Source: a virus
Virus record (IMG/VR): IMGVR_UViG_3300009085_000065
Coordinates: 1 to 32,217 of that record
Length of the DNA: 32,217 bases
Direction: 5' to 3' (one strand)
Shown here piece after piece: positions 8,770-32,217 of the stretch. The first letter of the stretch is position 1. Each line of letters begins with the position of its first letter. A program made the position numbers and the translations under genes. Under the pieces are notes generated by a model, which had not been told where the DNA came from, ran no database searches, and saw only the letters and a program-made list of their open reading frames with translations.

Positions 8770-9378
8770 ATGAAGAGCACACGATTACAGATTTATGACT
8801 GTGATCGCTGTGGCCTTACTTATAAGAAACATGAGTTACGCCGGCAACGCGGCATGATGCTTTGTGAGAGTTGTAGAGATGACTACTCTAAAATAAATCA
8901 TCCAAGACCGCGGTTCTTTACGCCGAGATCAAACAGTACTTCCGTTACGTCAGTTAACGAGCCTACAATATTTCCGATAAGTGCTGCTACAGGGATCGAC
9001 CGGATTACTCAATCACGAGTATATACCCGTGAGGGAGGAAGATCTGTTTACCACATGTACATTGTCGGTAACGGCGGTCCTATTAACATTACTGCAGACC
9101 CACAAATCATAGACGGCCTTCAAGGCGACGTCCTTACCCTTACTGGCACATCCAATACAAACACGGTTACGATTGAAGACGCTGGCGATCTTGCGCTTAC
9201 TCATGGGTCTATGATTTTGGGAGATGGAGACTCTATAACTTTTGTTTACAATAAAGATTATACGATTATTATGGGCGGACTTGGCTGGGGACTTAGTGAG
9301 TGGGGATCTACAGGATACGGATGGGGAAGTACTAACGAGGCGTGGGTTGAAACTTCACGTACTAAGGGAGGCTTTTAA
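8770..9378 (+). CDS. Zinc-ribbon virion protein with beta C-terminal domain
   Basis: A 202-residue protein with a zinc-binding N-terminus, C11-x2-C14 and C32-x2-C35 separated by a basic stretch (KKHELRRQRG). A region of about 55 residues rich in Ser, Thr and Pro follows. The C-terminal beta domain ends with a Gly/Trp-rich run (GGLGWGLSEWGSTGYGWGS) and WVETSRTKGGF. This combination occurs in phage structural genes beside fibres. There is no ribosome binding site at ATG 8770; the sequence just before it contains TATAAT instead. The stop overlaps the fibre ATG (TAATG), so it may be a connector needed in ratio with the fibre. Confidence 0.65.
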   Translation: MKSTRLQIYDCDRCGLTYKKHELRRQRGMMLCESCRDDYSKINHPRPRFFTPRSNSTSVTSVNEPTIFPISAATGIDRITQSRVYTREGGRSVYHMYIVGNGGPINITADPQIIDGLQGDVLTLTGTSNTNTVTIEDAGDLALTHGSMILGDGDSITFVYNKDYTIIMGGLGWGLSEWGSTGYGWGSTNEAWVETSRTKGGF

Positions 9379-12304: not shown

Positions 12305-13051
12305 ATGAAATACGGAGATATTGCAAGCGAAGGTTCAATAACGCCTTTACCGTCGGACTTTGCAATAGCAAGCCAGGCAACTGGAAATCTTCTATACTTC
12401 AACGGTACGAACTGGGTACGTCTTGCTCAGGGCTCTGCGAATCAGCTTCTCCAGTGTAATGGAGCAGCAGCTCCTACCTGGGTAACACCAGCTGCTGGCG
12501 GTGGAGTTCCGGTAGGTATGCAATTATTTACTTCAAGTGGAACTTGGACAAAGCCCGTTGGTGTAACTAGAGTTTACATTAGAATATGGGGGGGCGGAGG
12601 TGGAACAAATGGCGGAACTAACGCTGCCGGTGGTGGCGGTGGTGGCGGGTATGCAGAAGGTATTATAGCGGTTACGGGAAATGTTAGCGTTGTTGTTGGT
12701 GCTGCTGGAACTAATGGTGGTGGCGGAAATAACGGAACGGATGGTGGAAATAGTAGTTTTCCGGGAACAACAACTATTCAAGCAAATGGTGGAGTTGCAA
12801 ATAGTGGAACAAGCGGCGGTGCAGGTGGAACTGCTAGTGGCGGGTCAATAAATGTTACAGCAATTGCCGGAAGAAGTGCGAGTCAAGGGGCACATGGTGG
12901 ATATAATCTAGGAAATGTTATGCAATATGGCTCAACGCTTTCTATACCCGCCGGGAACGGAATATGGTATGGAGAGGGCGCCGGTGGTAATACTGTATTA
13001 GGCGGAACTGCGGGAACAGCAAAGAGCGGTTGTGTTATCGTAATGTATTAA
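12305..13051 (+). CDS. Glycine-rich putative adhesin 1
   Basis: A 248-residue protein preceded by AAGGAG. Residues about 20-60 form a SQATGN/FNGTNWVR repeat found in other genes here. A short beta segment follows (FTSSGTWTKPVGVTRVYIRIWG), which usually introduces glycine-rich phage tip domains. The remainder (about 95-248) is dominated by GGGGGG runs and ends in VIVMY. Such Gly-rich segments can fold as stacked polyglycine helices, as in T-even gp38-type adhesins, with loops that touch the receptor. Its place right behind the fibre supports a host-recognition role. Confidence 0.7.
   Translation: MKYGDIASEGSITPLPSDFAIASQATGNLLYFNGTNWVRLAQGSANQLLQCNGAAAPTWVTPAAGGGVPVGMQLFTSSGTWTKPVGVTRVYIRIWGGGGGTNGGTNAAGGGGGGGYAEGIIAVTGNVSVVVGAAGTNGGGGNNGTDGGNSSFPGTTTIQANGGVANSGTSGGAGGTASGGSINVTAIAGRSASQGAHGGYNLGNVMQYGSTLSIPAGNGIWYGEGAGGNTVLGGTAGTAKSGCVIVMY
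12365..12484 (+). repeat. Fibre repeat, copy in adhesin 1
   Basis: A 40-codon module (IASQATGN ... LYFNGTNWVRLAQGS ... AAPTWV). It differs from the copy at 13266-13385 by 3 residues of 40 but by 31 bases of 120, so the protein is kept while the DNA has diverged. Confidence 0.85.
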
Positions 13052-13064
13052 CAAGGAGAACATT

Positions 13065-13988
13065 ATGGGAAGTTCAGCAATAAATAAATCAAATTTCGCA
13101 GCCGTCGATCTTCAGATATCCGGACAGGTGCAGGGAGACCTCTTGTACTTTAACGGTTCTGACTGGATCCGTCTTCCCGCAGGTTCGTCTGGGCAACACC
13201 TTAGAGCGAACGGGGCTTCCGCGAATCCGTCCTGGGAGACGAGTCCTCTTCCTACAGATCTCAGCATAGCGAGTCAAGCTACGGGGAATATCTTATACTT
13301 TAATGGTACGAATTGGGTGCGGCTTGCTCAGGGATCTTCTGGGCAACTCTTACAGTGCAACGGTGCAGCGGCTCCGACTTGGGTTGCGGCTCCTAGTGGA
13401 GGGTCCCAAATACAAGTTTTTACTTCAAGTGGGACATTCACAGCGCCAGCAGGGGTCACTATGGTTTTTATTACAGCCACGGCTGGTGGCGGAGGAGGGG
13501 GGGCAAATAATACAAGTGGTGGTGTTGCCCCTGGAGGCGGAGGAGGGGCCGCTGTAATTATGCGTCCGTATACAGTTACACCCAGCAATTCTTACACCGT
13601 CACAGTTGGAGCCGGAGGAACGGCTGGTTCTCGATATTCTATAGGAGGAACAGGCGGAACGACATCTTTTGATGGTACAGGAATAAGCCTTCCAGGAGGA
13701 ACAGGCGGGATCGAATACGGCGGCCCGACCATAGGTGTAGGTGGTGGTGAAGGGCTAAATGCCGAAACAAGAATCGGAGGATATTGTATTAAGGGAGGTA
13801 ATGCTTTGGGCACAGATAAAGGTGGTGGAGGAGCTTCTGCAATAGGTAAAGCTGGATCACGTCCAAGTGGAGCTGGCGCTGGAAGCGCTGGTGTATTTGG
13901 AGGCGGAGGCGGCGGCGCTTACGGTGGTGGTGTAGGGTTCTATGCTGGCGGCGCCGGTGGAGCAGGGATAGTTATTGTAACGTATTAA
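13065..13988 (+). CDS. Glycine-rich putative adhesin 2
   Basis: A 307-residue paralogue of the preceding gene. It carries two FNGxxWxR repeats in a row (about residues 16-56 and 68-107), then a beta lead-in (FTSSGTFTAPAGVTMVFITA), then a long Gly-rich region with GGGGGG stretches ending in VIVTY. The extra repeat makes it longer than adhesin 1. Preceded by AAGGAG. It is probably another tip or side-fibre protein for the same particle, or an alternative receptor-binding protein. Receptor unknown. Confidence 0.7.
   Translation: MGSSAINKSNFAAVDLQISGQVQGDLLYFNGSDWIRLPAGSSGQHLRANGASANPSWETSPLPTDLSIASQATGNILYFNGTNWVRLAQGSSGQLLQCNGAAAPTWVAAPSGGSQIQVFTSSGTFTAPAGVTMVFITATAGGGGGGANNTSGGVAPGGGGGAAVIMRPYTVTPSNSYTVTVGAGGTAGSRYSIGGTGGTTSFDGTGISLPGGTGGIEYGGPTIGVGGGEGLNAETRIGGYCIKGGNALGTDKGGGGASAIGKAGSRPSGAGAGSAGVFGGGGGGAYGGGVGFYAGGAGGAGIVIVTY
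13266..13385 (+). repeat. Fibre repeat, copy in adhesin 2
   Basis: The counterpart of 12365-12484. Of 26 differing codons, 23 are synonymous, a sign that selection has kept the protein motif. A more distant copy precedes it in the same gene, and further relatives lie in the genes at 9378 and 23899. Confidence 0.85.
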
Positions 13989-14009: not shown

Positions 14010-14360
14010 ATGGGCGCAACTATGGGGAATTATTTACTAACAAGCGCGCAGATCGCGGCTGGAGGAACGTTCACGTCTGCTCCAATCAACATTGAGAAGG
14101 CTAATGCACTGGCTGTGCATCTTACCTCTATTGTTGGGGCCGCTCCGAGCTTGACGTTCACGTACTCACTGAGCTCTAGTGCCGATGGGACGTTTGTAAC
14201 GCCATCTGCACCGGCCACAATCGGAGCAGTGGTGGGTGCTGCTGATGTACTGGACTTCGCACCGGAATGTGCAAGCTTCATCAAGATCATTGTAACCAAT
14301 AACAATGGGGCAGCTGTTGTAACGCCGACAGTTATCCTGGCTATTCAAGAGTCTGATTAA
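14010..14360 (+). CDS. Small beta-sandwich-like virion protein
   Basis: A 116-residue protein preceded by AAGGAGG. It is made of alternating Val/Ile/Leu and Thr/Ser stretches (LTFTYSLSSSADGTF ... FIKIIVTNNNGAAVVTPTVILAI). This is the layout of small jelly-roll or beta-sandwich phage proteins that sit on heads or tails. There is no Cys and little charge. It begins the run of small beta proteins that extends to 18727. No exact family or role can be given. Confidence 0.6.
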   Translation: MGATMGNYLLTSAQIAAGGTFTSAPINIEKANALAVHLTSIVGAAPSLTFTYSLSSSADGTFVTPSAPATIGAVVGAADVLDFAPECASFIKIIVTNNNGAAVVTPTVILAIQESD

Positions 14361-14370
14361 GGAGGCTGAT

Positions 14371-14877
14371 ATGGGTTTTGCAACTGGTCCTAAGGATAAG
14401 ACCGAAACAATCGTCCATACGATTGTTGAAAAACAGGTGGAACGTCCAAAGTTTATTGACGTTGAGATCACACGTCCAGTGTACAAGGATGTCATCATCG
14501 AGCGCCCGATCATTGTGGAGAAGGAAGTGATCGTGGAAAAGGTCGTTATTAAAGAAGTGGAAAAGGTCGTGGAGGTGCCACGTTATGTCACGAAAGAAAT
14601 CGAGGTCATCAAGACAAAGATTGTCCCTCAGGATGTCTACTCTGCTAAGGTTATTGAACAAGTGGTTCATGTCTCACGCCCGGAAATTAAAGTCAAGTAC
14701 CTTGAAGAGGTTATCCGGGTCCCAAAGATCGTCTATGAAGAGACCATCAAAACGATTGAGATCCCGAAGATCGTCGAAAAAGAACTAATCATTAGTAGGC
14801 CGAAGTTTGTGGACAAGGAAGTTACGGTCATTAAACCGAAGTACGTTTGTCAAAATTGTGGACACGAGGTTAGATGA
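14371..14877 (+). CDS. Val/Lys/Glu/Pro repeat protein resembling alveolins, with C-terminal CxxC
   Basis: A 168-residue protein built almost entirely of short, irregular repeats of about 10-14 residues mixing VEK, VxVP, RPxxxDKE and IPKIVEKE units, for example EKVVEVPRYVTKEIEV. The last residues hold a single C160-x2-C163-GHE knuckle. Repeats of the EKIVEVP type define alveolins, filament-forming proteins of the protist cortex. Similar V/K/E/P repeats recur in some phage structural proteins. Such repeats favour long, charged beta-ribbon filaments. It lies inside the appendage cluster, behind an AAGGAGG site, and overlaps the next gene by ATGA. A filament or whisker role is inference. Confidence 0.75.
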   Translation: MGFATGPKDKTETIVHTIVEKQVERPKFIDVEITRPVYKDVIIERPIIVEKEVIVEKVVIKEVEKVVEVPRYVTKEIEVIKTKIVPQDVYSAKVIEQVVHVSRPEIKVKYLEEVIRVPKIVYEETIKTIEIPKIVEKELIISRPKFVDKEVTVIKPKYVCQNCGHEVR

Positions 14878-15476
14878 GAGCACTTCAGCACGTAAAACAG
14901 ATTGGTGATTTTGATTACTACCAGGCGTATACATTAACGAACCTGTACGTCGAGCAGACGTTTGGAGAGCATATCTCCACGATCAATCTTACTAATGATT
15001 CGACAACAGACGTGGCACAGTTTAGTTTTGACGGCGCCACGCTTGCTGGTGAGGTTCGTCCGGGAGAGTCGCTTACGCTAAACGTCGATCAGAAGAGCAG
15101 CATCTATGTTAAGGGATCAGCAGGAGGCGACGTACTCAGGATATGGAGTTACGCTAACGTGAGCGCGTCTGCAGTAACGACATCGTTTCAACCATTGAGT
15201 GTAGTTAATAAGTCCTATGAAGACGCAGCGTTCGTCGTTGGGGAGTCTCCAAAGATTATAGACTTCAACGCCGACGCCGGAAGAAATGCACGTCAAGGTT
15301 GGGTTACGTGTGATGGATTGGGGGATATTAAGGTAGCCTTCTCTAGAGACGGGTTAACGTTTGGAGACGACTGGACGATGAAGGCAGGGGAAGGAACGAA
15401 CTTAGAGAACTTTGATATTGATACGTTAAGAATTACCTGGGTCGCAGACTCAGCTTACAGGGTGGTACTAATATAG
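14874..15476 (+). CDS. Beta-rich virion protein, unknown
   Basis: A 200-residue protein coupled to the previous gene by an ATGA overlap and to the next by TAGTG. It is rich in Asp, Thr, Val, Ser and Ala. The segment INLTNDSTTDVAQFSFDGATL ending with a Gly-Glu-Ser turn resembles a jelly-roll domain (residues about 33-85). The second half (about 125-200) contains a separate beta domain with IDFNADAGRNARQG and ITWVADSAYRVVLI. No catalytic motif. It may be a two-domain appendage or tail-tip protein. Confidence 0.6.
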   Translation: MRALQHVKQIGDFDYYQAYTLTNLYVEQTFGEHISTINLTNDSTTDVAQFSFDGATLAGEVRPGESLTLNVDQKSSIYVKGSAGGDVLRIWSYANVSASAVTTSFQPLSVVNKSYEDAAFVVGESPKIIDFNADAGRNARQGWVTCDGLGDIKVAFSRDGLTFGDDWTMKAGEGTNLENFDIDTLRITWVADSAYRVVLI

Positions 15477-19070: not shown

Positions 19071-19252
19071 GCGAGCATAAGTTGAACCTTGACGTGCAGG
19101 AGCTGGCACACGCTATAAAAGAGATTCGAGAAGGAGTGGATCTTATTGAGTATATCGTTCAACAAGCACTAATCGAGGATGTGAATAATGGGAATAACGT
19201 GGACAAAATCGTGGCAGGCGTCGGACGACGGAACTGTTCTGAAGGGAATTGA
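19067..19252 (+). CDS. Small acidic helical protein
   Basis: A 61-residue protein overlapping the previous stop by ATGA. The N-terminal 40 residues are helical and acidic (ELAHAIKEIREGVDLIEYIV). The last 20 residues, rich in Gly, Asn and Arg, share 65 bases with the start of the tail-collar gene in another frame and look less gene-like, so its natural end may have been overwritten. Function unknown. Confidence 0.45.
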   Translation: MSEHKLNLDVQELAHAIKEIREGVDLIEYIVQQALIEDVNNGNNVDKIVAGVGRRNCSEGN

Positions 19253-19766
19253 TCTCAAGAATATCCAGGACGATATTACGTCTGGATCGACTGGAGACGC
19301 GACTTCAATATGGGGGGTGGACATCGAGACTCCTACCGCTGCCGATGATGGTAAAGTTCTATACTATGATCACGGAGCTGCTGCGTTTGATTATCTTACA
19401 GTTTCCTCAGCACTTATACCGGCAGGAGTTATCTTGTTGTGGTCTGGTGCAATTTCTGCGATCCCTAGTGGATGGGTTCTATGTAACGGAGCCAATGGTA
19501 CGCCCAATCTTACGGATCGCTTTATCATACACGCTGACGCAGACTCAGGAGGGACAAACAATGTCGGAGCTACGGGAGGAGCCAGTACGCACACGCATAG
19601 TGGCGGAGTCACTGGTGGCCCGTCTGCTACGGTACACGTTGATGATAACTCAGGTGGGACGGACTATAACGTCGGGAGCGAGACACATACCCACACCTTG
19701 AGTACAACAGGGTCTTCGTCAAATGTTCCTAAATATTACGCCTTGGCGTATATCATGAAATCGTAA
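19188..19766 (+). CDS. Tail-collar domain protein
   Basis: A 192-residue protein with a phage tail-collar signature at about residues 75-117 (IPAGVILLWSGAI, then IPSGWVLCNGANGTPNLTDRF), as in short tail fibres that attach the particle to the cell. The C-terminal half is Gly/Thr/His-rich with THTHSGG and ETHTHTLS, patterns that bind metal ions in some fibres. The first 30 residues match those of the gene at 23899 (23 of 30 identical), which fixes the start despite a 65-base overlap with the preceding gene. Likely a short fibre or tip. Confidence 0.8.
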   Translation: MGITWTKSWQASDDGTVLKGIDLKNIQDDITSGSTGDATSIWGVDIETPTAADDGKVLYYDHGAAAFDYLTVSSALIPAGVILLWSGAISAIPSGWVLCNGANGTPNLTDRFIIHADADSGGTNNVGATGGASTHTHSGGVTGGPSATVHVDDNSGGTDYNVGSETHTHTLSTTGSSSNVPKYYALAYIMKS

Positions 19767-20727: not shown

Positions 20728-21852
20728 ATGGGAAACCTTTCAAATACTATACCGTTCACAGAATTGTGGGAACGTCTTCTGACGATGGGACGTATTGACT
20801 CTCCTAACAACGTCGACTATGCCAAGGGCATTATCAACGATGTGTATGTCAGGACGCTTCCTCGTATAGCTGATTGGAATCCCATTATCGTAGAATCAAA
20901 TCTGTCAATGTCAGCATCATATAACACAGGGTCCGCTACTATCACTGCCGGATCTACTTCAGTCACTGGGACCGGAACTGTGTGGACTACGGCGATGCTG
21001 GCAGTTGATGGATATAAGATCAGTTTCGCAGGGAACGACAACATTTATTCATTCACACGTACCGCTGACACCACTGGAACGATCTCTCCGGCACTGTCGG
21101 GGGACCAGTCGTTAACTAATGTTAACTACAGAATCTATAGGGACGAATACCCCTTAGCTGCAGATTTCGACAGATTGTTGAGGAATGGGTCGATCTATGT
21201 ATACTCTGGTGGACGCGTTAGCGATATTATAGAGGAAGTTCCGCGTGATGAATTTCGTGAGTATTTCTCCCCAGAAGCCACAGACCCCCTGAGGCGTGTT
21301 ATGCTGTCTGGTACACATAACACAACTGGTTACCGGCTCATAAGGGTAAATCCACCGCCGTTAAAAGCAGTGGTTTACCCTTATGAGTATGTCAAGAAGA
21401 TAACTCCGATGACAGAGTACTCTGTAGGAACTGTGTCAGTTACCAATAGCAGCACTACAGTAAACGGATCTGGGACAACCTGGACGGCAAGTATGGTAGG
21501 ACAGTATTTAAGAGTAGATGCCAATGGAATCGGGGACAGCTCGAAGTGGTATCGAATCGCCACACGAGTCAGCAACACACAGATTACTCTGGAGACGGCG
21601 TATGAAGAAGCTACAGAGGCGTCTCTAGATTACCACATCTCCGGATCTCCGACAATGTTCCCGTCGGAGTTCCATGAGTTCATTCTGTACGAAGCGCTTA
21701 CTCTAGTAATGGGAGAGCAGACAGACCCAACGATACAGAACGTCCAAGCACAGAAGACGTTCATTCTGTCCGATCTCAAAAAGAACTATAAGAACAGGAG
21801 AACCAACGTGCAGTTCTCCGCTGATGATGACGGGTATCGCTCATGGCAGTAG
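20728..21852 (+). CDS. Neck adaptor or tail-tube protein with two inserted beta modules
   Basis: A 374-residue protein with helical ends (residues 1-55 and 310-374; FPSEFHEFILYEALTL) and two beta modules between. Modules at about 70-145 and 230-310 both follow the pattern S/T-T-x-V-x-G-x-GT-x-W-x-x-x-M-x-x-x-Y. Position and shape recall P22 gp4 or tail-tube adaptors below the portal. It overlaps the next gene by ten bases. Here the gene lies 12 kb past the capsid gene instead of beside the portal. AAGGAG precedes the ATG. Confidence 0.65.
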   Translation: MGNLSNTIPFTELWERLLTMGRIDSPNNVDYAKGIINDVYVRTLPRIADWNPIIVESNLSMSASYNTGSATITAGSTSVTGTGTVWTTAMLAVDGYKISFAGNDNIYSFTRTADTTGTISPALSGDQSLTNVNYRIYRDEYPLAADFDRLLRNGSIYVYSGGRVSDIIEEVPRDEFREYFSPEATDPLRRVMLSGTHNTTGYRLIRVNPPPLKAVVYPYEYVKKITPMTEYSVGTVSVTNSSTTVNGSGTTWTASMVGQYLRVDANGIGDSSKWYRIATRVSNTQITLETAYEEATEASLDYHISGSPTMFPSEFHEFILYEALTLVMGEQTDPTIQNVQAQKTFILSDLKKNYKNRRTNVQFSADDDGYRSWQ

Positions 21853-23651
21853 GACGAAGATTAACTACTCTTAATATGGATGAGTACTCCGGCGGTTGCA
21901 ACTACGACCGGGATCTGACTTCTCTAAAAGAGAAGGAATCTCCTAACGCAATCAACGTTGTGTTCGATAACACAGTGATCCGAAAACGCACTGGGTACAA
22001 GGAGATGGCGGATACGGGAGTCACAACAGCTATAGGGTATGCTTTGTTTGACTATGGAGTGTCTGGAGTTGGGCGTAGGCTAGTATCTCATATAGGAACT
22101 AGCGTCTACAAGATGTCTAATCTAGATGGTATTCTTTCAGCGATCCGTACAGTCACACCTCAGTGCATCTCCTATATGACCGAGGTCAAGCAGCTATTGA
22201 TCCATACATTCAGTGATTACTCTGCGCCTTACTACTGGAACGGAACTGATCCTGCTATGATGTTGTTGTCGTTGTCTTCTCCAGGGTTCAAGCACGCTAT
22301 AGAAACACAAGGATATCTTCTAGGAGGGAACACACAGGCTGAGCCACTCCGCATTTACTACGAAGACATCAACACAATGGTCGGGGGGAGTTACCTTGAT
22401 TATTTCACACTCACTGGTGCTAAGAACGACGAGATCACAGGCTGGTTCATTATCAATGGCAGAACGTATGCGTCTACTAAAACAGGTATCTTCCGTGTCA
22501 GCTTTATAGGTGGAGTCGCTGTATTTGAGTACAAGCAGGTAGTGTCTGATGTAGGAGTTATACCTAGAACAGCGAAGGTCGTCATCTCTAAGGAGTATGG
22601 CCAGGTCGTTATTTTCCTAGGGTATGATCTTAATATCTATTTATTCGACGGAACTTTCATCAGAGTGATTTCAGAGAAGTACAGAAATGCAAACAACGAC
22701 ACGCCTATCGCTCCGAGCTACGTAGAGTGGAATAAGCTCGACAACTGCAACGCAACATACGATCCGATATCACAGGTCTACAGTGTGTACATCACGGCTA
22801 AGGGAGACGATACAAACTATTTCTCCTTTAACGTGGACATACGGGACCTCTCCTATTACCCCTTCGATAATATGCCCTTCCACTCTACTACAGTAGCCGA
22901 GGACGCGATAGGACGGAAGTTCAGACTAGGGGCTGATTACAGTGGAAAAATCCACAAGATGTTCGGGAACTATAACAACGATAATGGTGTGGTCATCATA
23001 GAGAACTATGAGAGCCCGATGCTTATGCAGAGGCCAGCACAACGAAGCAAGAGCACGACGCTAGACCTGTACTTCAAACCAGTGGCCTTTTACGAGATTC
23101 AACTTGATGACAGAACAGACTTTGATAAGACCTGGAAGCCGAGGACTGTTCTAAAGATGCACCATGTTCGAGACCGATTTCTAGGATACAACACAATGCT
23201 AGGTAACACGGCAGTGCTTGGAAGCGACGTTGAAATCACAGCACCTCGTCCGAATATTCCAGTTACCAGCAATACGTACCGCTTTCGTCTTCATACTCAA
23301 GACCTGTCGGATGCAGGGACCATCGTTCAGTGGGAAGAGGGGACAGTGAGTGGGACCGGAGAAACGACATCTATCACTGGAACAGGAACGGCGTGGCAGT
23401 CTTATATGACGAGTGAAAACGGATATAAGATTCATATCAAGTCAGGGCTACATGCAAACACTGTATACGATTTTACCTATACATCCCCGACGACAGCGAC
23501 GGTAGGCACAATGCTTGCAGGAGACTTTGCAGGAGTTTCGTATGAGGTGTTCCGTACAAACTACGCAGGAGCAGGGCCGGCCTGGGAACTCCTCAAAGTT
23601 GACTTCTTATCTCAAGCACTCGGGGCCGGTAAAGAGGAGCCGTTAAGATGA
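21843..23651 (+). CDS. Tail nozzle protein (P22 gp10-like, putative)
   Basis: A 602-residue protein right after the adaptor, with repeated beta-blade-like segments (RLVSHIGTSVYKMSNLDG, then YYWNGTDPAMML, later FIINGRTYASTKTGIFRV) typical of the propeller-based nozzles of short-tailed phages. The closing part (about 498-575) carries a GTGTAW beta module like those of the neighbouring adaptor. The pair of adaptor plus nozzle is the best evidence for a podovirus-like tail. The C-terminus overlaps the next gene by ATGA. Confidence 0.7.
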   Translation: MAVGRRLTTLNMDEYSGGCNYDRDLTSLKEKESPNAINVVFDNTVIRKRTGYKEMADTGVTTAIGYALFDYGVSGVGRRLVSHIGTSVYKMSNLDGILSAIRTVTPQCISYMTEVKQLLIHTFSDYSAPYYWNGTDPAMMLLSLSSPGFKHAIETQGYLLGGNTQAEPLRIYYEDINTMVGGSYLDYFTLTGAKNDEITGWFIINGRTYASTKTGIFRVSFIGGVAVFEYKQVVSDVGVIPRTAKVVISKEYGQVVIFLGYDLNIYLFDGTFIRVISEKYRNANNDTPIAPSYVEWNKLDNCNATYDPISQVYSVYITAKGDDTNYFSFNVDIRDLSYYPFDNMPFHSTTVAEDAIGRKFRLGADYSGKIHKMFGNYNNDNGVVIIENYESPMLMQRPAQRSKSTTLDLYFKPVAFYEIQLDDRTDFDKTWKPRTVLKMHHVRDRFLGYNTMLGNTAVLGSDVEITAPRPNIPVTSNTYRFRLHTQDLSDAGTIVQWEEGTVSGTGETTSITGTGTAWQSYMTSENGYKIHIKSGLHANTVYDFTYTSPTTATVGTMLAGDFAGVSYEVFRTNYAGAGPAWELLKVDFLSQALGAGKEEPLR

Positions 23652-23898: not shown

Positions 23899-24831
23899 AT
23901 GGCTATTACATGGACAAAATATTGGTCAGGATCAGATGATGGAACGGTTCTAAAAGGAATTGATATTAGAAATATTCAAGACGACCTTTCTGTTGTCCAG
24001 ACTGTTGATGATGTTTTAGATATTCCAGGACAAACGCAGGGTGATCTTCTCTATTATAATGGAGTTGATTGGACGAGGATCGGAGCAGGGACGGACGGCC
24101 AAGTACTGATGACAAAAGGCCTTGGGTTTGATCCTGAGTGGGGGCTACCTGAAGATTTGGTTATCTCAGGACAGACAACTGGAGACGTCTTACAGTTTGA
24201 CGGGACTAACTGGGTTTCAGTAGCCGCATCTACAATCACAGAGGGAAGGATCCAGCTATTCACGGCAGACGGGACGTTTACAGCTCCTGCCGGAGTGACG
24301 ACGGTATATCTAACAATGGTCGGTGCAGGCGGCGGTGGTGGCGGAGATAATAACTCTGGAGGTGGCGGCGGTGGTGGCGGTGGAGAATCTATCATCAACT
24401 ATCCGTATACAGTGACACCAGCTTCAAACTATGCTGTTATCGCCGGGACTGGTGGAACTGCCGGGACTAACAGCATAAATGGAGGAGGGGCAGGTACGGG
24501 AGAAGCCAGTTCATTCGACGGGACTATTATCGCTGCTGGTGGTATAGGTGGTCAGGGTAACTGGAGCGGAGGAGATGAAGGGCTCGGAGGAGCTGGCGCT
24601 GGTGGCATAGACGCTTCTGGTTCTACTGCGGCTAATGGAACTGGAATAAAAGGTGGGAATGGTGGAAATGCCACAGCAAATGTCGGTGGAGCAGGTGGTG
24701 GGTCATGTTTTGGTAAAGGTGGAGTTATGGCAACAGCTCCTAGTGGATACGGGTCAGGTGGGAATGGTTCATCAAGTGCTTCTAGTGGTAACAGAGATGG
24801 TGCAAATGGGTTTGTAATTGTAATGTATTAA
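23899..24831 (+). CDS. Glycine-rich putative adhesin 3
   Basis: A 310-residue protein. The first 30 residues nearly match those of the tail-collar gene at 19188. Two SGQ/TQGD-type repeats follow (about 42-80 and 86-115, with WTRIG and FDGTNWV), then the beta lead-in FTADGTFTAPAGVTTVYLTM, then a Gly-rich region with repeated GGGGGG to the end (FVIVMY). AGGAG precedes the ATG. Its layout makes it a third member of the adhesin set, joined to the particle by the same N-terminal tag as the collar protein. Confidence 0.7.
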   Translation: MAITWTKYWSGSDDGTVLKGIDIRNIQDDLSVVQTVDDVLDIPGQTQGDLLYYNGVDWTRIGAGTDGQVLMTKGLGFDPEWGLPEDLVISGQTTGDVLQFDGTNWVSVAASTITEGRIQLFTADGTFTAPAGVTTVYLTMVGAGGGGGGDNNSGGGGGGGGGESIINYPYTVTPASNYAVIAGTGGTAGTNSINGGGAGTGEASSFDGTIIAAGGIGGQGNWSGGDEGLGGAGAGGIDASGSTAANGTGIKGGNGGNATANVGGAGGGSCFGKGGVMATAPSGYGSGGNGSSSASSGNRDGANGFVIVMY

Positions 24832-24840
24832 GGAGATTCT

Positions 24841-26202
24841 ATGTACGAGATACGTGTATTGGAAAATGAAGACTTCGACGAGCTCCCATACAAGAAGGCT
24901 AGGAGCTCTCTAGGGCTAGCCGATGCTAAGACAGGCGTGGCCTACGTTCGACGGACGGGGATCAACGGACTCGACGCTACCACCATACGCCATGAGTTCG
25001 ACGAGCTTCTGCAGAAGGTGTCTCCGCACGAGGAGGACGGGATACGGTACAAGAGTGGGGCAAGCTTAGGAAGTTGGCTAGGGCCGGTTATCGGTACAGC
25101 CATATCCGTTCTGTCCGGCGGAACGCTTACTCCTTTAGGAGTAGCCGTAGGCGGTGGAATTAGCGGAGGAACAAAGTACCATACACAAGCAACCAAGCCT
25201 GAGAAGTACGGTTCTCCTACATTTGGATCTGTGGCAACGTCTACTGGGATGGGCGCTCTTGGGTCGTACGCAGGCGGCTCTTTAGCCAATGCTGGTATAT
25301 CAGGATTCAAGGCAGCGGGCCCCGGGTTCATGAGCAAGCTCGGAGGAACGCTTAGCGGAATGACAGGTGGTGCTATAGGGGCAGGTCCAGGTGCCGCTCC
25401 GACATCTATAGCAACGCCTTCTGGGTACACAGGTACAGTGACTGTTCCTGGCATCGGATCGTCTATTCCTATATCACAAGCTTCTACAGCAGCGTCGGGA
25501 GGAGGGGCTAGTTTAGGGTCAGCGATATCAAGTGGGATCAACAAAGCCTCTAAAGGTTTTACCCCAACATCTATATCGTCAGCCGGGTCTAAGGCAATAG
25601 AGGCTGCTCCGTCATTGTTGTCAAAGACTGGTGGGCTGGCTAAGAAGGCCGCTACAGGGCTGGCCACAGACACTCTAGTTAATTCTCTATCCCCGACACA
25701 GAATAGAGCGGTGGCGAACTTAGGCCAGAGTGGTGGAGAGAATGCCTTGTCGTTGTTTGGAGCCCCTAACAAGTTATCAAGCAGCAACCCGTCGAGTGCG
25801 TTCAAGGCTCCTTATGGCGACGAAGAAGTAAACCAAGGGCTCTTGAATATCGACCAGCAGTATCAAAAGCAGTACAGAAATATATTCGACACCTTTAGAC
25901 AGGCTGCTCCTGGAACATCTATAGAAGGAAACTCACGATTCGCAAGCCAATTAGCGAATGCGAAGAAGGGATACGGCGCTACCATAGATAGTTTCACTCA
26001 AGGAGTGGATACGGCAAACGTTCAGGCACAGAACCAGTACGTGTACAACGGAGTTAAGAACGCGAACAACCTATCGGATGCACAGATGTCTCAGTACATT
26101 CGTTTGTCGTCTCAACCAGATTCCGTGATCCGTGCTCAGTTCCCAGGAATGCAGCCGAGCGAGTTCCGGAGTATTTTTCAAGGACTAGAAGCTTTTGCAT
26201 AA
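24841..26202 (+). CDS. Putative ejection protein A with His-Glu motif domain
   Basis: A 453-residue protein. Residues 1-75 form a conserved domain with GLADAKTGVAYVR and an H51-E52-x2-E55 ... H63-E64-E65-D66 motif, shared almost intact with the gene at 26557. It continues with a long Gly/Ala/Ser-rich region containing glycine-zipper-like stretches (about 80-200) that could cross membranes, then a charged C-terminal part (about 330-453) ending like its paralogue. The layout resembles internal virion proteins that leave the head before the DNA. The His/Glu residues might bind a metal, but the HExxE form is not a known protease signature. Confidence 0.6.
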   Translation: MYEIRVLENEDFDELPYKKARSSLGLADAKTGVAYVRRTGINGLDATTIRHEFDELLQKVSPHEEDGIRYKSGASLGSWLGPVIGTAISVLSGGTLTPLGVAVGGGISGGTKYHTQATKPEKYGSPTFGSVATSTGMGALGSYAGGSLANAGISGFKAAGPGFMSKLGGTLSGMTGGAIGAGPGAAPTSIATPSGYTGTVTVPGIGSSIPISQASTAASGGGASLGSAISSGINKASKGFTPTSISSAGSKAIEAAPSLLSKTGGLAKKAATGLATDTLVNSLSPTQNRAVANLGQSGGENALSLFGAPNKLSSSNPSSAFKAPYGDEEVNQGLLNIDQQYQKQYRNIFDTFRQAAPGTSIEGNSRFASQLANAKKGYGATIDSFTQGVDTANVQAQNQYVYNGVKNANNLSDAQMSQYIRLSSQPDSVIRAQFPGMQPSEFRSIFQGLEAFA

Positions 26203-26582
26203 TGGATACAGACCAACGGCAATACTACGACAGGATGCTGGAGAAACACAGAGCCCACGTGATACTGAAGGACGGGCACGTAGCAGCGATACTAACATAT
26301 TTAATAGGCGACGATGACGACAAGTATTTACACAAAAGAATACCGTGGACCGAGATACAGGACAATGTCGACGGGACTACAGTGTATATTGACCAACTCA
26401 TTGTTCGAGAACACGCAGCCTATAAGTGCATACATAAGGAACTCAGCAACGTATTGAGTATGATTAGAAACCAGTTTCCACAGGTGAAACGGGCCAAGTG
26501 GATACGCACAGATGCCATGTTTAGAAAGCATGGGATAAAAGAAGGAGTAAAGGCATATGTACACTGTAAAGATATTAAGTGA
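26202..26582 (+). CDS. Small protein with GNAT-like tail, unknown role
   Basis: A 126-residue protein lying between the two paralogous ejection proteins, with TAATG overlap upstream and a 26-base overlap downstream. The part VYIDQLIVREH followed by a long helix and WIRTDAMFRKHGIKEGVKAYVH recalls the second half of GNAT acetyltransferases, but the usual acetyl-CoA binding signature (Q/R-x-x-G-x-G/A) is not present. It may be a degenerate or distant GNAT domain. It could act on a virion protein, which is speculation. Confidence 0.4.
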   Translation: MDTDQRQYYDRMLEKHRAHVILKDGHVAAILTYLIGDDDDKYLHKRIPWTEIQDNVDGTTVYIDQLIVREHAAYKCIHKELSNVLSMIRNQFPQVKRAKWIRTDAMFRKHGIKEGVKAYVHCKDIK

Positions 26583-27900
26583 GAAGGAGTTTGACGGGCT
26601 TCCCTACAAGCACGCTAAGACTTCACTCGGACTTGCTGACGCTAAGACGGGTGTGGCATATGTGCGTGACACGGGTTACAACGACATCACTAAACATACC
26701 ATTGACCACGAGCTCGATGAACTTATAGCAAAGACCTCTCCTCACGAGGAAGATGGCATACGATATAAGAATCTTGCTAGTCTAGCAGGTGGAGCAGGAT
26801 CTGGTATTCTTTCGAGTATGGTGCCAGCACTGAAAGGATTCGCACCCTTGATATCAGCCGGCGTAGGGGCCGCTGTCAACAAGGATAAGAATTATCTTCA
26901 GGGAGCGGCACAGGGACTTGCAGGTGGAGGGATAGGAACTGGATTGGGCGGTGGGATATTTGATTCGTTTAAGGGTGTTACTCAGCCAGGTGGGACATTT
27001 GGAAAAGCACTACAGCAGCTAGTCCCTGGAATGACTCGTGGAGTTACGGAGTATGCCGGTGCTCTTCCAGGATTCGGAGGTATAGGAACTTCTAGTCCGA
27101 CTGGTAAAATAGCGCAGTGGTTGCAAGGCACATCGAAGTCTCCTATAAGTTTGTCTACGGCTAAGCCTTTAACTGGAGGAGCCGGTACAGCCACTGAGTT
27201 TGCAAAGAGTATGGCGACACCACAAGTAGGACAAGGCGGTGGAACTACAGGCGGAGGAACGACAGGAGGCGGATTTAGTATAAATGATTCCATTAAGAAA
27301 ATGATTCCCAGTTTGGGGATTGCAGGATTGGGGGAGTTGTTCGCTCCTAAAGTAGAGACTCCGGACTTCTCTGGGATCAGGAAAGACCTAGAGTCTAAGA
27401 TAACTTCCGGAGGCGAGCCTCTCGCTAAAGAAGCCGGTATGAAAGAACTCTTAGCAGGACTTGATCCGAATAGAAACATGACAGGGTTTGCTCAAGGAGA
27501 TACGTATGCTAAAGAGCAATTAGTAAATAATCTGAGAGATTTCGATACGTACTGGAAGAGCATACGCCCTGGTGCTGATTACAAGAACGACGCAGAGTAC
27601 CAGTACCAGCGTCAAGAGATCATACGCAAGGCGACGAACGATAGAACAGAAGCACGTGACGCGCAGCAACTCCAACAAATGGCTACGTACATGCAGACAG
27701 CGTTGAATCTCGACCAGAGCCAGATGGCTCAGTACGTAACGCTAGCGCAACTTGATGTCAATCAGCTGATGTTGAAGTATGGTGTTGACGTCGAGACGGC
27801 TACTAAGTTCAAACAGATGTTCGCAGACCTCGCTAATGCTCAATATGGTGGAGTAGGTCAGAATATCACTTTGGCTGATTTGAAAAATGCAATAACATAA
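26557..27900 (+). CDS. Putative ejection protein B, paralogue of A
   Basis: A 447-residue protein. Its first 71 residues repeat the His-Glu domain of the gene at 24841 (HELDELIAKTSPHEEDGIRYK here; H51, E52, E55, H63, E64). A Gly/Ala/Ser-rich central part follows, with GGGTTGGGTTGGG at about 228-240, then a charged C-terminal domain with many Gln and Asp. The closing region (about 385-435) resembles the end of paralogue A (NLDQSQMAQY against NLSDAQMSQY). AAGGAG precedes the ATG. A tandem duplication with a gene inserted between the copies is the simplest history. Confidence 0.6.
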   Translation: MYTVKILSEKEFDGLPYKHAKTSLGLADAKTGVAYVRDTGYNDITKHTIDHELDELIAKTSPHEEDGIRYKNLASLAGGAGSGILSSMVPALKGFAPLISAGVGAAVNKDKNYLQGAAQGLAGGGIGTGLGGGIFDSFKGVTQPGGTFGKALQQLVPGMTRGVTEYAGALPGFGGIGTSSPTGKIAQWLQGTSKSPISLSTAKPLTGGAGTATEFAKSMATPQVGQGGGTTGGGTTGGGFSINDSIKKMIPSLGIAGLGELFAPKVETPDFSGIRKDLESKITSGGEPLAKEAGMKELLAGLDPNRNMTGFAQGDTYAKEQLVNNLRDFDTYWKSIRPGADYKNDAEYQYQRQEIIRKATNDRTEARDAQQLQQMATYMQTALNLDQSQMAQYVTLAQLDVNQLMLKYGVDVETATKFKQMFADLANAQYGGVGQNITLADLKNAIT

Positions 27901-28516: not shown

Positions 28517-31500
28517 ATGGCAATCGACCCCAATCAATTAACTATGATGCAACAGTACCTGGACTCTCTTCCGACGGAAGAGCTGCTAAAGCTCCGTTCT
28601 CCAGAACAAAAGGCATCTCCTCTAAAGTTATTCCAGCAAAAAGCAGGAGAGATCGCTTCTAATATAGGTTCTGGGATAGCAGAGGGAACAGGTAATGCGG
28701 TTAATGCTATGGGAAGGGGGTTAGTAGATACGAGTTCCAGAATAGCAGAAGGCACGGGACAAGTGTTTGATAAGATGGGGGCTGCGTATGGGAACAGCGG
28801 CCTTCAACCAATGATGGCCGATCTAGGATCCATTGTAAAAGGTGGGCTGGCGAATACAGCATATTTAGATAAAGCATTCTCTCCAGAAGGCGGTGCTCCG
28901 GATTTCATGAAGCGGTTCGGCGCACCTATGACTGCCGAAGATCTTCCTTCTAAAGTTCCTTTCACTGATGTAGGGGTTCCTGAAATAGCACGTAAAGGAG
29001 TAGCTGCGTTTGGAAACTTTAACTTAGGCCTTCCTATTACCGGGAAACTTATAGGGCAGCCCGTAGCACGTGCCGCAGGTCTAGGATTAGATGCCGTTAA
29101 CCTAGGTCTCGACGCTGCTAAAGCTATACCGTCTACGTTTGGATATGTAGAGCCGGGATTTGAAGACAGAAATAAAGCAGGAAGATTTGGTGGGAACTTT
29201 CTAGACCTTCCGCAGTATGTACAGAATGTTCGTCAAGAGCAACAGATACGAGAAGGCGGAGGTCGTGGGAATATTTATTCTGATGCCATGCAGCGGAAAT
29301 GGACTGGAGACTATATCCAGGCTAGGCTAGACAGCGGAACTCCTCCAGACGCTTTAGCGAATGAGATGAGCACTGAGATAAAAATGATGGGAGTGGCAGG
29401 GGACTGGTCTGATTTCTTAACTGATATACTGACCATGGAAGGACAAGGAAAAATAATTCCCGCAGTGCTTAGGAAGATCACTGCAAACGCGGGCAGGGTT
29501 GACGCGTATCGCCTTGCCTCTGCAAAACGTCAGACGTCTTTAGTGGAGAGGGCCAATCGTGATGCAGCATACGCTGCTTCAGATGAAGGCCGTCTTCAGA
29601 ACAAGTTAAAAGGATTCTGGGGGAAATTATCTCCTGAAGAACAAGCCGCTGTTCAGGCTCGTAGAGGGCCGTACACACCAGATGATGAGATGGCTGCCCT
29701 TAAAGAAAAATTGGCTGGAGATGTACAGAAAGCAGCTGAAGTAGATAAGCAGTTGGCTGAGTTACCTGCACTTCAAGCAGAGCAAGATGTTGCTGGAAAG
29801 ATGATGATGGAAGGCGGCGTCATGAAGAAGTTCGGGGCCAAGTTGCAAGAGAAACTTGATCCTAGACTCAAGGCTATTGAAGCAGAGAAATTACGACGTG
29901 CCCAGTTCGCAGAACAACAGGCAGCAATAGGAAAGCCGCAGCCAAGTGCCCAAAAGCCGGCTCCAAAAATATTTAAAAAGAAATCAGTGAGTGCACCAAG
30001 CACTGTGTCTCCTAGTAAGATTACCCCGTCCCAAGCGTCCCAACCAGTGGGGCAGCCGGTACCTGGGCTTCCTGTTGCTCCAGGAAATGCAATAAAGAAG
30101 GGTGGCCAAAAAGGAGTTAAGGCGGCGAAGCCGGCAGCAGTCGAAGACCCAGCTGTCGCTGCTAAGAAAGAGGCTGAGTGGCAGGCACTGAAGAAAAAAC
30201 TCTTAGCAGATGAAGCAGCTAGGAAAGCGGCTTTAAAAGAAGTATCTCCAGCAGCTCCAGTTAAACCTGCTACTGTTGCTCCAGTTAAACCTGCTATAGG
30301 ACTTCCAGTAGAACAGCCAAAAGGTAATGCGATAAAGAAAGCTGCTGGAAAAGCAGTCGCTTCTAAAGCACCAAAGGTAGGGGAAGCTAAAGCAGAAGCG
30401 ATTAAGTTAATGGAACAAGCTAAGCGTTTTGATGACGCTGTGGTAACTGGGCCAAATGCAGCTGCATTGCGTGCAGAGAACGCTGCTAAGGCAAAAGACC
30501 TCAGAGCACGTGCGTCTAAGTTATTGGATGAAGAAGCAAAGGCCATATATAAAAAGACTAAAGACGTTCTAGCAGAGCGACCGGCTGCTCCTGCTAAAGC
30601 AGTACCTGGTCTACCAGTTGAGCAGCCTAAAGGGAACGCTATAAAGAAGGCAGCGAAGGCAAAAGTAGAAAAGCCCGTTGTCGTTGAGGATCCAGCTGTA
30701 GCAGCGAAGAAGGAAGCGGAGTGGCAGGCTTTCAAAAAGAAACTTGCAAAACAAGAGGCTGCTAAAGCTGGACTACCTGCTGAGCAACCAAAAAAGAACC
30801 CCTTAAAAAAAAAAATAAAAAGTGAACCTGCAGCAGTTACCCCAGAAACTCCCTCCGTCGGAAAGGCTGAAAAAGCCATAGAAGACATGAACGAACTAGA
30901 ACTTGCAAAGTTTTTAGTGCAAGATCTAAACATCGGGTTATCCGTCAAGAAGACCGGTGACGCATCAGAAGAAGCCGCTAAGGCTGCACGAAAAGCCGCA
31001 GCATGGAAACGTCTTAAGTACCTCATGGATAATCCAAATGAGACCAAGCAGTTTCTCATGACGTCTCTTAAGATGACCGCCTCACAAGCAGACGATGTAA
31101 TTTCTAAGTACACTAAAGACCTTGCTCCTAAACCTACAAACATTATAGAAAAATCCGCAGCCGCAAGCCTCGTTCCTCAGAAGACCAAACTAGACTCTGC
31201 AGTTGAGGTTGTTAAAAGTCTTGTAGATGAGAAGGCTTCTCCTTACGTGGCCTCTCGTGTACTGACCGAGGCCTCTAGTGGAGTCAAGAGAGTTACCGCT
31301 GAGGAACTGGTGACTATGCTCAGTAAAGAAATGCAGAGCGATGATATCATTAAAGCATTCACAAAGATAAATACTGAAGCGGAATCCATGACACGTGTCG
31401 CTGGTCAACCAGTGGCTACAGACACGCTTGTTAAGCGAGTGTTAAAGATCGTCACTGGGAAACGGCAGCCGACTACCGTTATAGAAGAGCCGTTTGTTCA

Positions 31501-32217
31501 AACGAAACTTGAACCTACCGCAGGTGCGAGAGAAATAGCAAGGCCGTCAATATCAGCAGAGAGCACTGGGATGCTGAGCGAAAAGAAAAATATATTTCCT
31601 TTCTCTGGAAGGACTCCGTCTAAAGCAGAAAAAATAAAAACTTTTGAAGCCCCTGGTAAACCTGAGCCTACAGTGGCACCTGGAACAGCTGCGAAAGGAT
31701 CGAAGGACTTGCCTGTCGCACAGCCTAAAGAAATGGTGGACGCTAGGCCGAAACTTCCAAAAGGAAAATTAAGTGAAGCGCAGTTGACTAAATATAAAGC
31801 CGAGTACAAAGCGTGGCGTAAAAAAGAACTGAAGCAGCGTCTAGAGGCAAGGGAAAAGGCCGATATAGAAAAAGCCAAGAAGCGTTTGAAGTATGATGCG
31901 GACACTGTGCTGCAGACTAAGACAGCGCAGCAAGATGCAAAGTACGCCTATAACGTCACTAAACAACGTACCGCAGAGAAAGCTGTGTATGAAGCAGAGG
32001 TAGAGTATCTCGTGGAGGAAGCAACAAAGAGAGATATATCTACGCAGATACAAGTGCTCCGTCAAGATATAAGGCGGATGGAACGAGCCGGTGGTAAAGG
32101 CGTGTACATGAAGACTAAAGGGATGAAAGACGAACTCGCTAGTCTAATAGCTAAAAGAGAAGAGATAAGTGCAGGGCAAAAAGCACGTGTGAGGGAAATG
32201 TCTCCGGACGTATCTAA
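28517..32217 (+). CDS. Giant internal virion protein, 3' end beyond window
   Basis: An uninterrupted frame from ATG 28517 (right after the previous TAA) to the window edge, at least 1233 codons with no stop. The N-terminal part (about 35-75) is Gly/Ala-rich and probably amphipathic, followed by a helical domain up to about residue 500. The middle (about 480-770) is a Lys/Ala/Pro-rich linker with four GLPxxQPKxNxxKK repeats and a duplicated EDPAVAAKKEAEWQA segment. The visible C-terminal part is mainly coiled coil. Size and position suggest an ejection or DNA-pilot protein. No transglycosylase motif is seen. Confidence 0.65.
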   Translation, partial: MAIDPNQLTMMQQYLDSLPTEELLKLRSPEQKASPLKLFQQKAGEIASNIGSGIAEGTGNAVNAMGRGLVDTSSRIAEGTGQVFDKMGAAYGNSGLQPMMADLGSIVKGGLANTAYLDKAFSPEGGAPDFMKRFGAPMTAEDLPSKVPFTDVGVPEIARKGVAAFGNFNLGLPITGKLIGQPVARAAGLGLDAVNLGLDAAKAIPSTFGYVEPGFEDRNKAGRFGGNFLDLPQYVQNVRQEQQIREGGGRGNIYSDAMQRKWTGDYIQARLDSGTPPDALANEMSTEIKMMGVAGDWSDFLTDILTMEGQGKIIPAVLRKITANAGRVDAYRLASAKRQTSLVERANRDAAYAASDEGRLQNKLKGFWGKLSPEEQAAVQARRGPYTPDDEMAALKEKLAGDVQKAAEVDKQLAELPALQAEQDVAGKMMMEGGVMKKFGAKLQEKLDPRLKAIEAEKLRRAQFAEQQAAIGKPQPSAQKPAPKIFKKKSVSAPSTVSPSKITPSQASQPVGQPVPGLPVAPGNAIKKGGQKGVKAAKPAAVEDPAVAAKKEAEWQALKKKLLADEAARKAALKEVSPAAPVKPATVAPVKPAIGLPVEQPKGNAIKKAAGKAVASKAPKVGEAKAEAIKLMEQAKRFDDAVVTGPNAAALRAENAAKAKDLRARASKLLDEEAKAIYKKTKDVLAERPAAPAKAVPGLPVEQPKGNAIKKAAKAKVEKPVVVEDPAVAAKKEAEWQAFKKKLAKQEAAKAGLPAEQPKKNPLKKKIKSEPAAVTPETPSVGKAEKAIEDMNELELAKFLVQDLNIGLSVKKTGDASEEAAKAARKAAAWKRLKYLMDNPNETKQFLMTSLKMTASQADDVISKYTKDLAPKPTNIIEKSAAASLVPQKTKLDSAVEVVKSLVDEKASPYVASRVLTEASSGVKRVTAEELVTMLSKEMQSDDIIKAFTKINTEAESMTRVAGQPVATDTLVKRVLKIVTGKRQPTTVIEEPFVQTKLEPTAGAREIARPSISAESTGMLSEKKNIFPFSGRTPSKAEKIKTFEAPGKPEPTVAPGTAAKGSKDLPVAQPKEMVDARPKLPKGKLSEAQLTKYKAEYKAWRKKELKQRLEAREKADIEKAKKRLKYDADTVLQTKTAQQDAKYAYNVTKQRTAEKAVYEAEVEYLVEEATKRDISTQIQVLRQDIRRMERAGGKGVYMKTKGMKDELASLIAKREEISAGQKARVREMSPDVS
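30059..30813 (+). repeat. Dispersed repeats in the Lys/Ala/Pro-rich linker
   Basis: Four copies of a GLPVxQPKGNAIKK-type motif begin near 30065, 30299, 30608 and 30772; the last is degenerate. Two copies of EDPAVAAKKEAEWQA (near 30142 and 30687) sit in the same relation to their repeats, so a unit of about 545 bases appears partly duplicated. Confidence 0.65.
30805..30815 (+). other. A11 homopolymer in coding sequence (slippage-prone site)
   Basis: Eleven A in a row inside the Lys-rich linker, read as the end of TTA, three AAA and the first base of ATA. Adding one A gives AAT AAA AAG TGA; losing one gives TAA. Both alternative frames stop within four codons. Confidence 0.8.

Follow-up and report, generated by a model that had tools for sequence, protein, structure and literature searches.

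A register- and length-locked repeat protein with alveolin-like units in a phage structural gene block

We describe a phage protein of 168 residues whose repeats keep to a strict two-residue parity over a core of locked length, whose two ends are conserved, and whose gene is followed by the same neighbour in all 20 family members. We propose that several chains of this protein form a beta-ribbon, a strut or fibre of fixed length that would be part of the virion and would work together with the downstream protein, and we put the probability of this reading at about one half. Since the window (the whole stretch of DNA that was analysed, a linear IMG/VR virus contig of 32,217 nucleotides) encodes a phage capsid protein as well as a portal of the SU10 type (PF23899, E=5e-12), the phage is judged from its genes to be podovirus-like.

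The repeat-protein gene occupies 14371..14877 on the plus strand and translates to 168 aa plus stop, as the first-pass annotation had stated. A strong Shine-Dalgarno sequence, AAGGAGG, can be read at 14359..14365 (+), 5 bases 5' of the ATG, and most relatives have a similar purine-rich site ahead of the repeat gene. The stop codon of the gene and the start codon of the downstream gene share ATGA at 14874. Among the closer relatives with usable dS, dN/dS is ~0.09-0.14, which indicates purifying selection; synonymous sites are saturated in most pairs. This ratio and the existence of relatives rule out a chance ORF.

The family comprises ~20 distinct relatives in IMG/VR and one in a Nitrospirae MAG, none of which belongs to a named family, and its proteins are 162-169 residues long. 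Another IMG/VR contig (L002) holds a 100% identical copy; in the scans of IMG/VR and one scan of bacterial genomes, the next-closest relatives are 63-64% identical and the others lower, to ~28%, with an outlier (L069) at 20%. The Nitrospirae relative (L012) lies on a short contig that is probably a phage contig, because a large terminase-like gene is found two genes upstream, as in L006. No relatives were found in other genomes of the Nitrospirae phylum or in 50,697 sequenced isolate phages (by BLAST, whose low-complexity filter may hide matches), and three added scans, each with a single relative as query, yielded no new members. Membership in a described family was rejected, since Pfam (for the window protein), PHROGs (best E=0.045), NCBIfam (a chance match only, far under the cut-off) and PDB sequences all lacked a qualifying match. 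The papers covered by our literature search contain no description of alveolin- or articulin-like proteins in phages. Five diverged repeat proteins of 168-196 aa (L064-L066, L069 and L070) lack the C-terminal CxxC; those of L069 and L070 adjoin small beta-rich proteins and fibre genes, and those of L064-L066 stand in a different gene context.

The repeat core extends from Pro26 to Pro156 (14446..14838, +), a span of 130 residues within which all proline spacings are even. The first-pass annotation had described nearly the whole protein as EKxVEVP- and RPxxVDKE-like repeats. Its repetitive character holds, with V, I, K, E and P making up 115 of the 168 residues; the EKxVEVP heptad occurs once only, as EKVVEVP at residue 64. 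Prolines delimit units of 10, 10, 24, 16, 18, 14, 14, 12 and 12 residues, which do not form a strict tandem repeat. At the DNA level the gene contains one weak 12-bp array only, and recent tandem duplication of DNA was rejected on that ground as the origin of the repeats. At even lags the identity autocorrelation of the window protein has peaks, the strongest at 12 (z=4.1) and another at 18 (z=3.9), and at odd lags it is mostly below zero; family-wide, lag 10 is strongest (mean z=5.2). Across the family, residues divide into two faces. The face that shares the parity of proline (face B) takes E at 90%, D at 85%, Y at 89%, F at 96% and A at 88%, and the opposite face (face A) takes K at 91%, R at 91% and V at 81%. 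The in-register fraction of the window protein is 0.90, which falls to 0.54 +/- 0.03 when its residues are shuffled (z=12), and a two-state model finds no register slip across its core at a penalty of at least 4.6. Each protein is in register at 0.76-0.93 vs ~0.54 when shuffled, and the other proteins tested exceed all of their own 3000 shuffles.

The same rule governs how the family varies. In the 20 members with complete ends, 204/204 proline spacings are even, and so are 97/97 internal gap runs (of 2, 4, 8, 10, 12, 14 or 22) after alignment residue 22, at a median identity of 0.41; since the members are related these counts are non-independent, a problem from which the within-protein shuffles are free. 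Odd alignment offsets give strongly negative scores. These observations bear on an alternative in which the protein serves as a charged linker or tether, extended and for the most part unfolded, that joins two docking ends, with an alternation that arises only from the avoidance of aggregation. The charge pattern could also serve such a linker, and both the low-complexity composition and the lack of order in the monomer prediction (see below) agree with it. A linker gives no evident reason, however, for even spacings throughout, even-only indels and a constant length, and the charge-hydropathy value of the protein falls on the ordered side, so that we regard this alternative as distinctly unlikely.

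The repeat span begins at the first proline of the core and ends at that of the C-terminal KPxYxC; its length is 130 residues for 13/20 members, 128 for 6 and 126 for 1. It is constant despite widely differing proline patterns, and pairwise alignments show several compensating indels of 2-14 residues. To hold out a sample, the last scan was baited with the downstream neighbour instead of the repeat protein and returned 5 new contigs. The repeat gene was directly upstream in 5/5, with even core proline spacing; its products are in register at 0.83-0.91 and have core lengths of 130, 130, 128, 126 and 128 residues. One odd proline spacing was seen in this set (L102), and it falls within the C-terminal knuckle, outside the core.

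Both ends of the protein are conserved. The N-terminal head, MGFATGPK (14371..14394, +), is represented by MGFAxG or close variants in most relatives, and is possibly a docking peptide. The C-terminal KPKYVCQNCGHEVR (14833..14874, +) resembles half of a zinc-ribbon-like knuckle and contains the one CxxC of the protein, the single CxxC end of the earlier description; the CxxC is present in 20/20 members, and matches to zinc ribbons are weak. A test for a zinc ribbon or zinc knuckle failed, with 1 CxxC per chain vs the 4 ligands needed and a His after the CxxC that is not conserved. A full zinc site would need two chains or a partner, and a single CxxC is no proof of zinc.

Directly downstream of the repeat gene in 20/20 members, as a profile search showed, is a homologue of a 200-aa protein (14874..15476, +) with two predicted beta-sandwich (jelly-roll-like) domains, the first of which is modelled at pLDDT ~75-82 over most of its length. 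In a fold search with this protein the matches were weak overall and spread over beta-sandwich, jelly-roll and beta-barrel folds, whole-chain TM-scores being low. Normalised by target length, TM values of 0.6-0.74 occur for some viral matches to single domains, and some matches are viral capsid or spike proteins. In L058 the domain begins a 645-aa fibre-like protein, as a fusion. Directly upstream in 17/20 members is a homologue of a small beta-rich protein of 116 aa (14010..14360, +), a count that includes a diverged branch (hhalign probability 97.8%).

The wider setting had been called a phage tail cluster, which is not strictly the case: it is a head-to-neck block of a phage with an SU10 portal, in which fibre genes are plentiful. 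The repeat gene has the major head protein on one side and two genes, of 374 and 602 aa, on the other, with fibre genes and virion structural proteins nearby. These two genes probably encode neck or tail parts, a reading based on weak family matches. A small beta domain of the T(S/T)xxGTGTxWT type occurs twice in the 374-aa protein (20728-21852) and once in the 602-aa protein (21843-23651). A few genes ahead of the repeat gene, in many relatives, are homologues of a 202-aa protein (8770-9378) whose N-terminal part includes a stretch resembling a zinc finger, of the form CxxC...CxxC (CDRCGLTYKKHELRRQRGMMLCESC); L004 has a change at one ligand position (SHDC). Three proteins have glycine-rich C-terminal domains (12305-13051, 13065-13988 and 23899-24831), and the first and last of them match phrog_863 (tail fibre assembly), which suggests several fibre tips in one phage. 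The proteins of 19188-19766 and 23899-24831 have a near-identical N-terminal stretch, ITWTK.W..SDDGTVLKGID.(R/K)NIQDD, probably a particle-attachment module. Two large proteins (24841-26202 and 26557-27900) have in common a ~70-aa N-terminal domain with a conserved HE(F/L)DEL...SPHEEDGIRYK motif; the domain may be peptidase-like and the two may be ejection proteins. The ORF at 28517-32215 encodes at least 1233 aa before it is cut by the contig end; it is Ala/Lys-rich with several PAVAAKKEAEWQ-like repeats, and a 456-aa minus-strand ORF inside it is probably a shadow ORF.

That the gene is strictly paired with one for a small beta protein (20/20), that its stop codon overlaps the next start codon and that fibre genes surround it would also suit an assembly factor or chaperone, one that serves the fibre or jelly-roll-like proteins encoded nearby. 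Such a factor would be absent from the mature virion, its strand adding to the edges of partner sheets during folding. A locked length of 126-130 residues would be more natural for a building part, and no match to known chaperone families was obtained; we therefore consider a chaperone an unlikely, if credible, explanation.

Structure prediction had been suggested as a check in the first-pass annotation. The AlphaFold2 monomer has a mean pLDDT of 51 and no secondary structure, and alveolin domains are likewise disordered as monomers in published models, forming a twisted beta-ribbon only as multimers (PMC12465100). Monomer disorder thus does not refute a fibre; the disordered monomer found here, in itself a point against a strut, matches the alveolin case, and with the parity this leads us to favour a multi-chain beta-ribbon. 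From the strict parity over ~130 residues, with a proline mostly every 10-16, we infer that the core would run as one continuous two-faced beta strand with no register slip. At a copy number of two or more, chains could lie side by side with the Lys/Arg/Val face of one on the Glu/Pro/Tyr face of another, to give a beta-ribbon or multi-chain beta rod. Selection would set the length of the rod; at 0.33 nm per residue, a fully extended core of 130 residues would reach ~43 nm. Docking onto the particle would be the task of the conserved N-terminal head. The C-terminal CxxC would probably complete a zinc site, either between chains or jointly with a partner, and a knob or base would be made by the jelly-roll-like protein, whose translation directly follows that of the repeat protein. 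This strut or fibre could act as a filament, whisker or tether, any of which is in keeping with the genes around it.

The resemblance to alveolins, the cortical filament proteins of protists, was put forward earlier for the window protein; it is borne out for the family, and that protein alone fails the profile test. The alveolin profile PF12314 (IMCp; gathering cut-off 21.1 bits) matches 18/19 members at E<=10, with a best E=1.3e-8. Five relatives pass the cut-off (L011 at 35.5, L063 at 27.5, L060 at 25.3, L068 at 22.1 and L062 at 21.9 bits), most other members score 9-18 bits, and the window protein remains under it with 8.3 bits (E=3.8). The IMCp match of L011 disappeared in three residue shuffles, in three parity-preserving shuffles and on reversal of the sequence; two versions with whole proline-delimited units permuted both stayed over the cut-off. 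Neither composition nor parity alone therefore accounts for the match, which is to the unit itself and its direction. Across 19 proteins, the alveolin heptad known from the literature, EKIVEVP (PMC12465100), has 5 exact occurrences and 22 with at most one mismatch; shuffled sequences average 0.13 (full shuffles) and 1.1 (parity-preserving shuffles). Pure composition as the source of the match is ruled out by the L011 shuffles together with these counts. The heptad also fits the parity rule, with E, I, E and P on one face and K, V and V on the other, the parity of alveolins being judged here from this heptad only. At the level of the repeat unit the alveolin likeness is real.

The profile match of the relatives and the enrichment of the heptad could also point to an alveolin-like intracellular filament, made by the phage to act on the host cell cortex or to organise phage replication. 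We consider this very unlikely, since the gene lies within a late structural block and is strictly paired with a jelly-roll-like protein, and since the protein has just 168 aa, a fixed length and no di-cysteine membrane-anchor motif of the kind that some apicomplexan alveolins carry (PMC5223771). As to origin, an unrelated protein of an Obscuribacterales MAG (L013:5647-6210), which probably carries a signal peptide and has repeats of the VEKPV type, shows near-identical two-residue parity and scores 19.3 bits to IMCp. Such repeats are thus seen in at least two unrelated proteins, and this recurrence favours convergence on a common design; shared ancestry is compatible with the sequences. A search for IMCp in 194 genomes of that protein's phylum found none at E<=1e-4, a threshold at which control genomes were also silent, so that this negative result is weak. 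A bolder proposal is that the phage protein is a molecular ruler of a new, virus-encoded class: a register- and length-locked beta-ribbon whose repeat unit has common ancestry with the alveolin/articulin repeat, so that this design of the eukaryotic cytoskeleton might have its reservoir, or its source, in phages. We find this distinctly doubtful.

To our knowledge, the folding and polymerisation of alveolin/articulin domains are unsolved, partly because the proteins are insoluble. The phage version, at 162-169 residues, has a fixed length, conserved ends and a constant partner, and could for these reasons lend itself to study as a model of these domains; the parity rule (P/E/D/aromatics vs K/R/V), which the alveolin heptad obeys too, is a testable design principle. 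For phage biology, the protein would be an unannotated type of fibre or strut.

Comparison with known systems shows where the phage family stands. It shares with alveolins the Val/Pro/Glu/Lys repeats, an even unit length and a disordered monomer model. Alveolin domains are ~140 aa with 13 repeats (PMC12465100), and their repeat length is 12 aa (PMC4303705). In contrast to this 12-residue consensus, the phage units have 10, 12, 14 or 16 residues; furthermore, the phage protein has no variable head and tail domains, ends in a CxxC knuckle, is fixed in length and is encoded in a structural gene block. Epiplastins and articulins (of protists, with articulin-like proteins in Caulobacter) resemble it in their low-complexity V/E/I/K/P domain, acid-base dyads and predicted beta strands. 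In the epiplastin class this domain is medial, set between a full-complexity head and tail. The composition of the phage protein fits, its head has only ~20 residues and its tail ~12, and its monomer is predicted to have no secondary structure. Unlike that class it has no VPV enrichment, and no phage member of the class has been described. In articulins VPVPV is found and VPVVPV never (PMC6212826), in agreement with the parity rule; because the example string of the same paper, EKVVIDRIPVIPQVREPK, has odd proline spacings, strict parity is not established for epiplastins. Among phage proteins a parallel is the T4 gp5 spike, whose beta-helix repeat is also even, at 8 residues. Like the rod that we propose, gp5 is a phage rod of short repeats with two-faced strands, in its case a triple-stranded beta-helix in which the strands have an inside and an outside face (PMC4576200). 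Unlike gp5, which is built of VxG repeats, the core of the repeat protein has 0-1 glycine in the 20 members, and proline instead.
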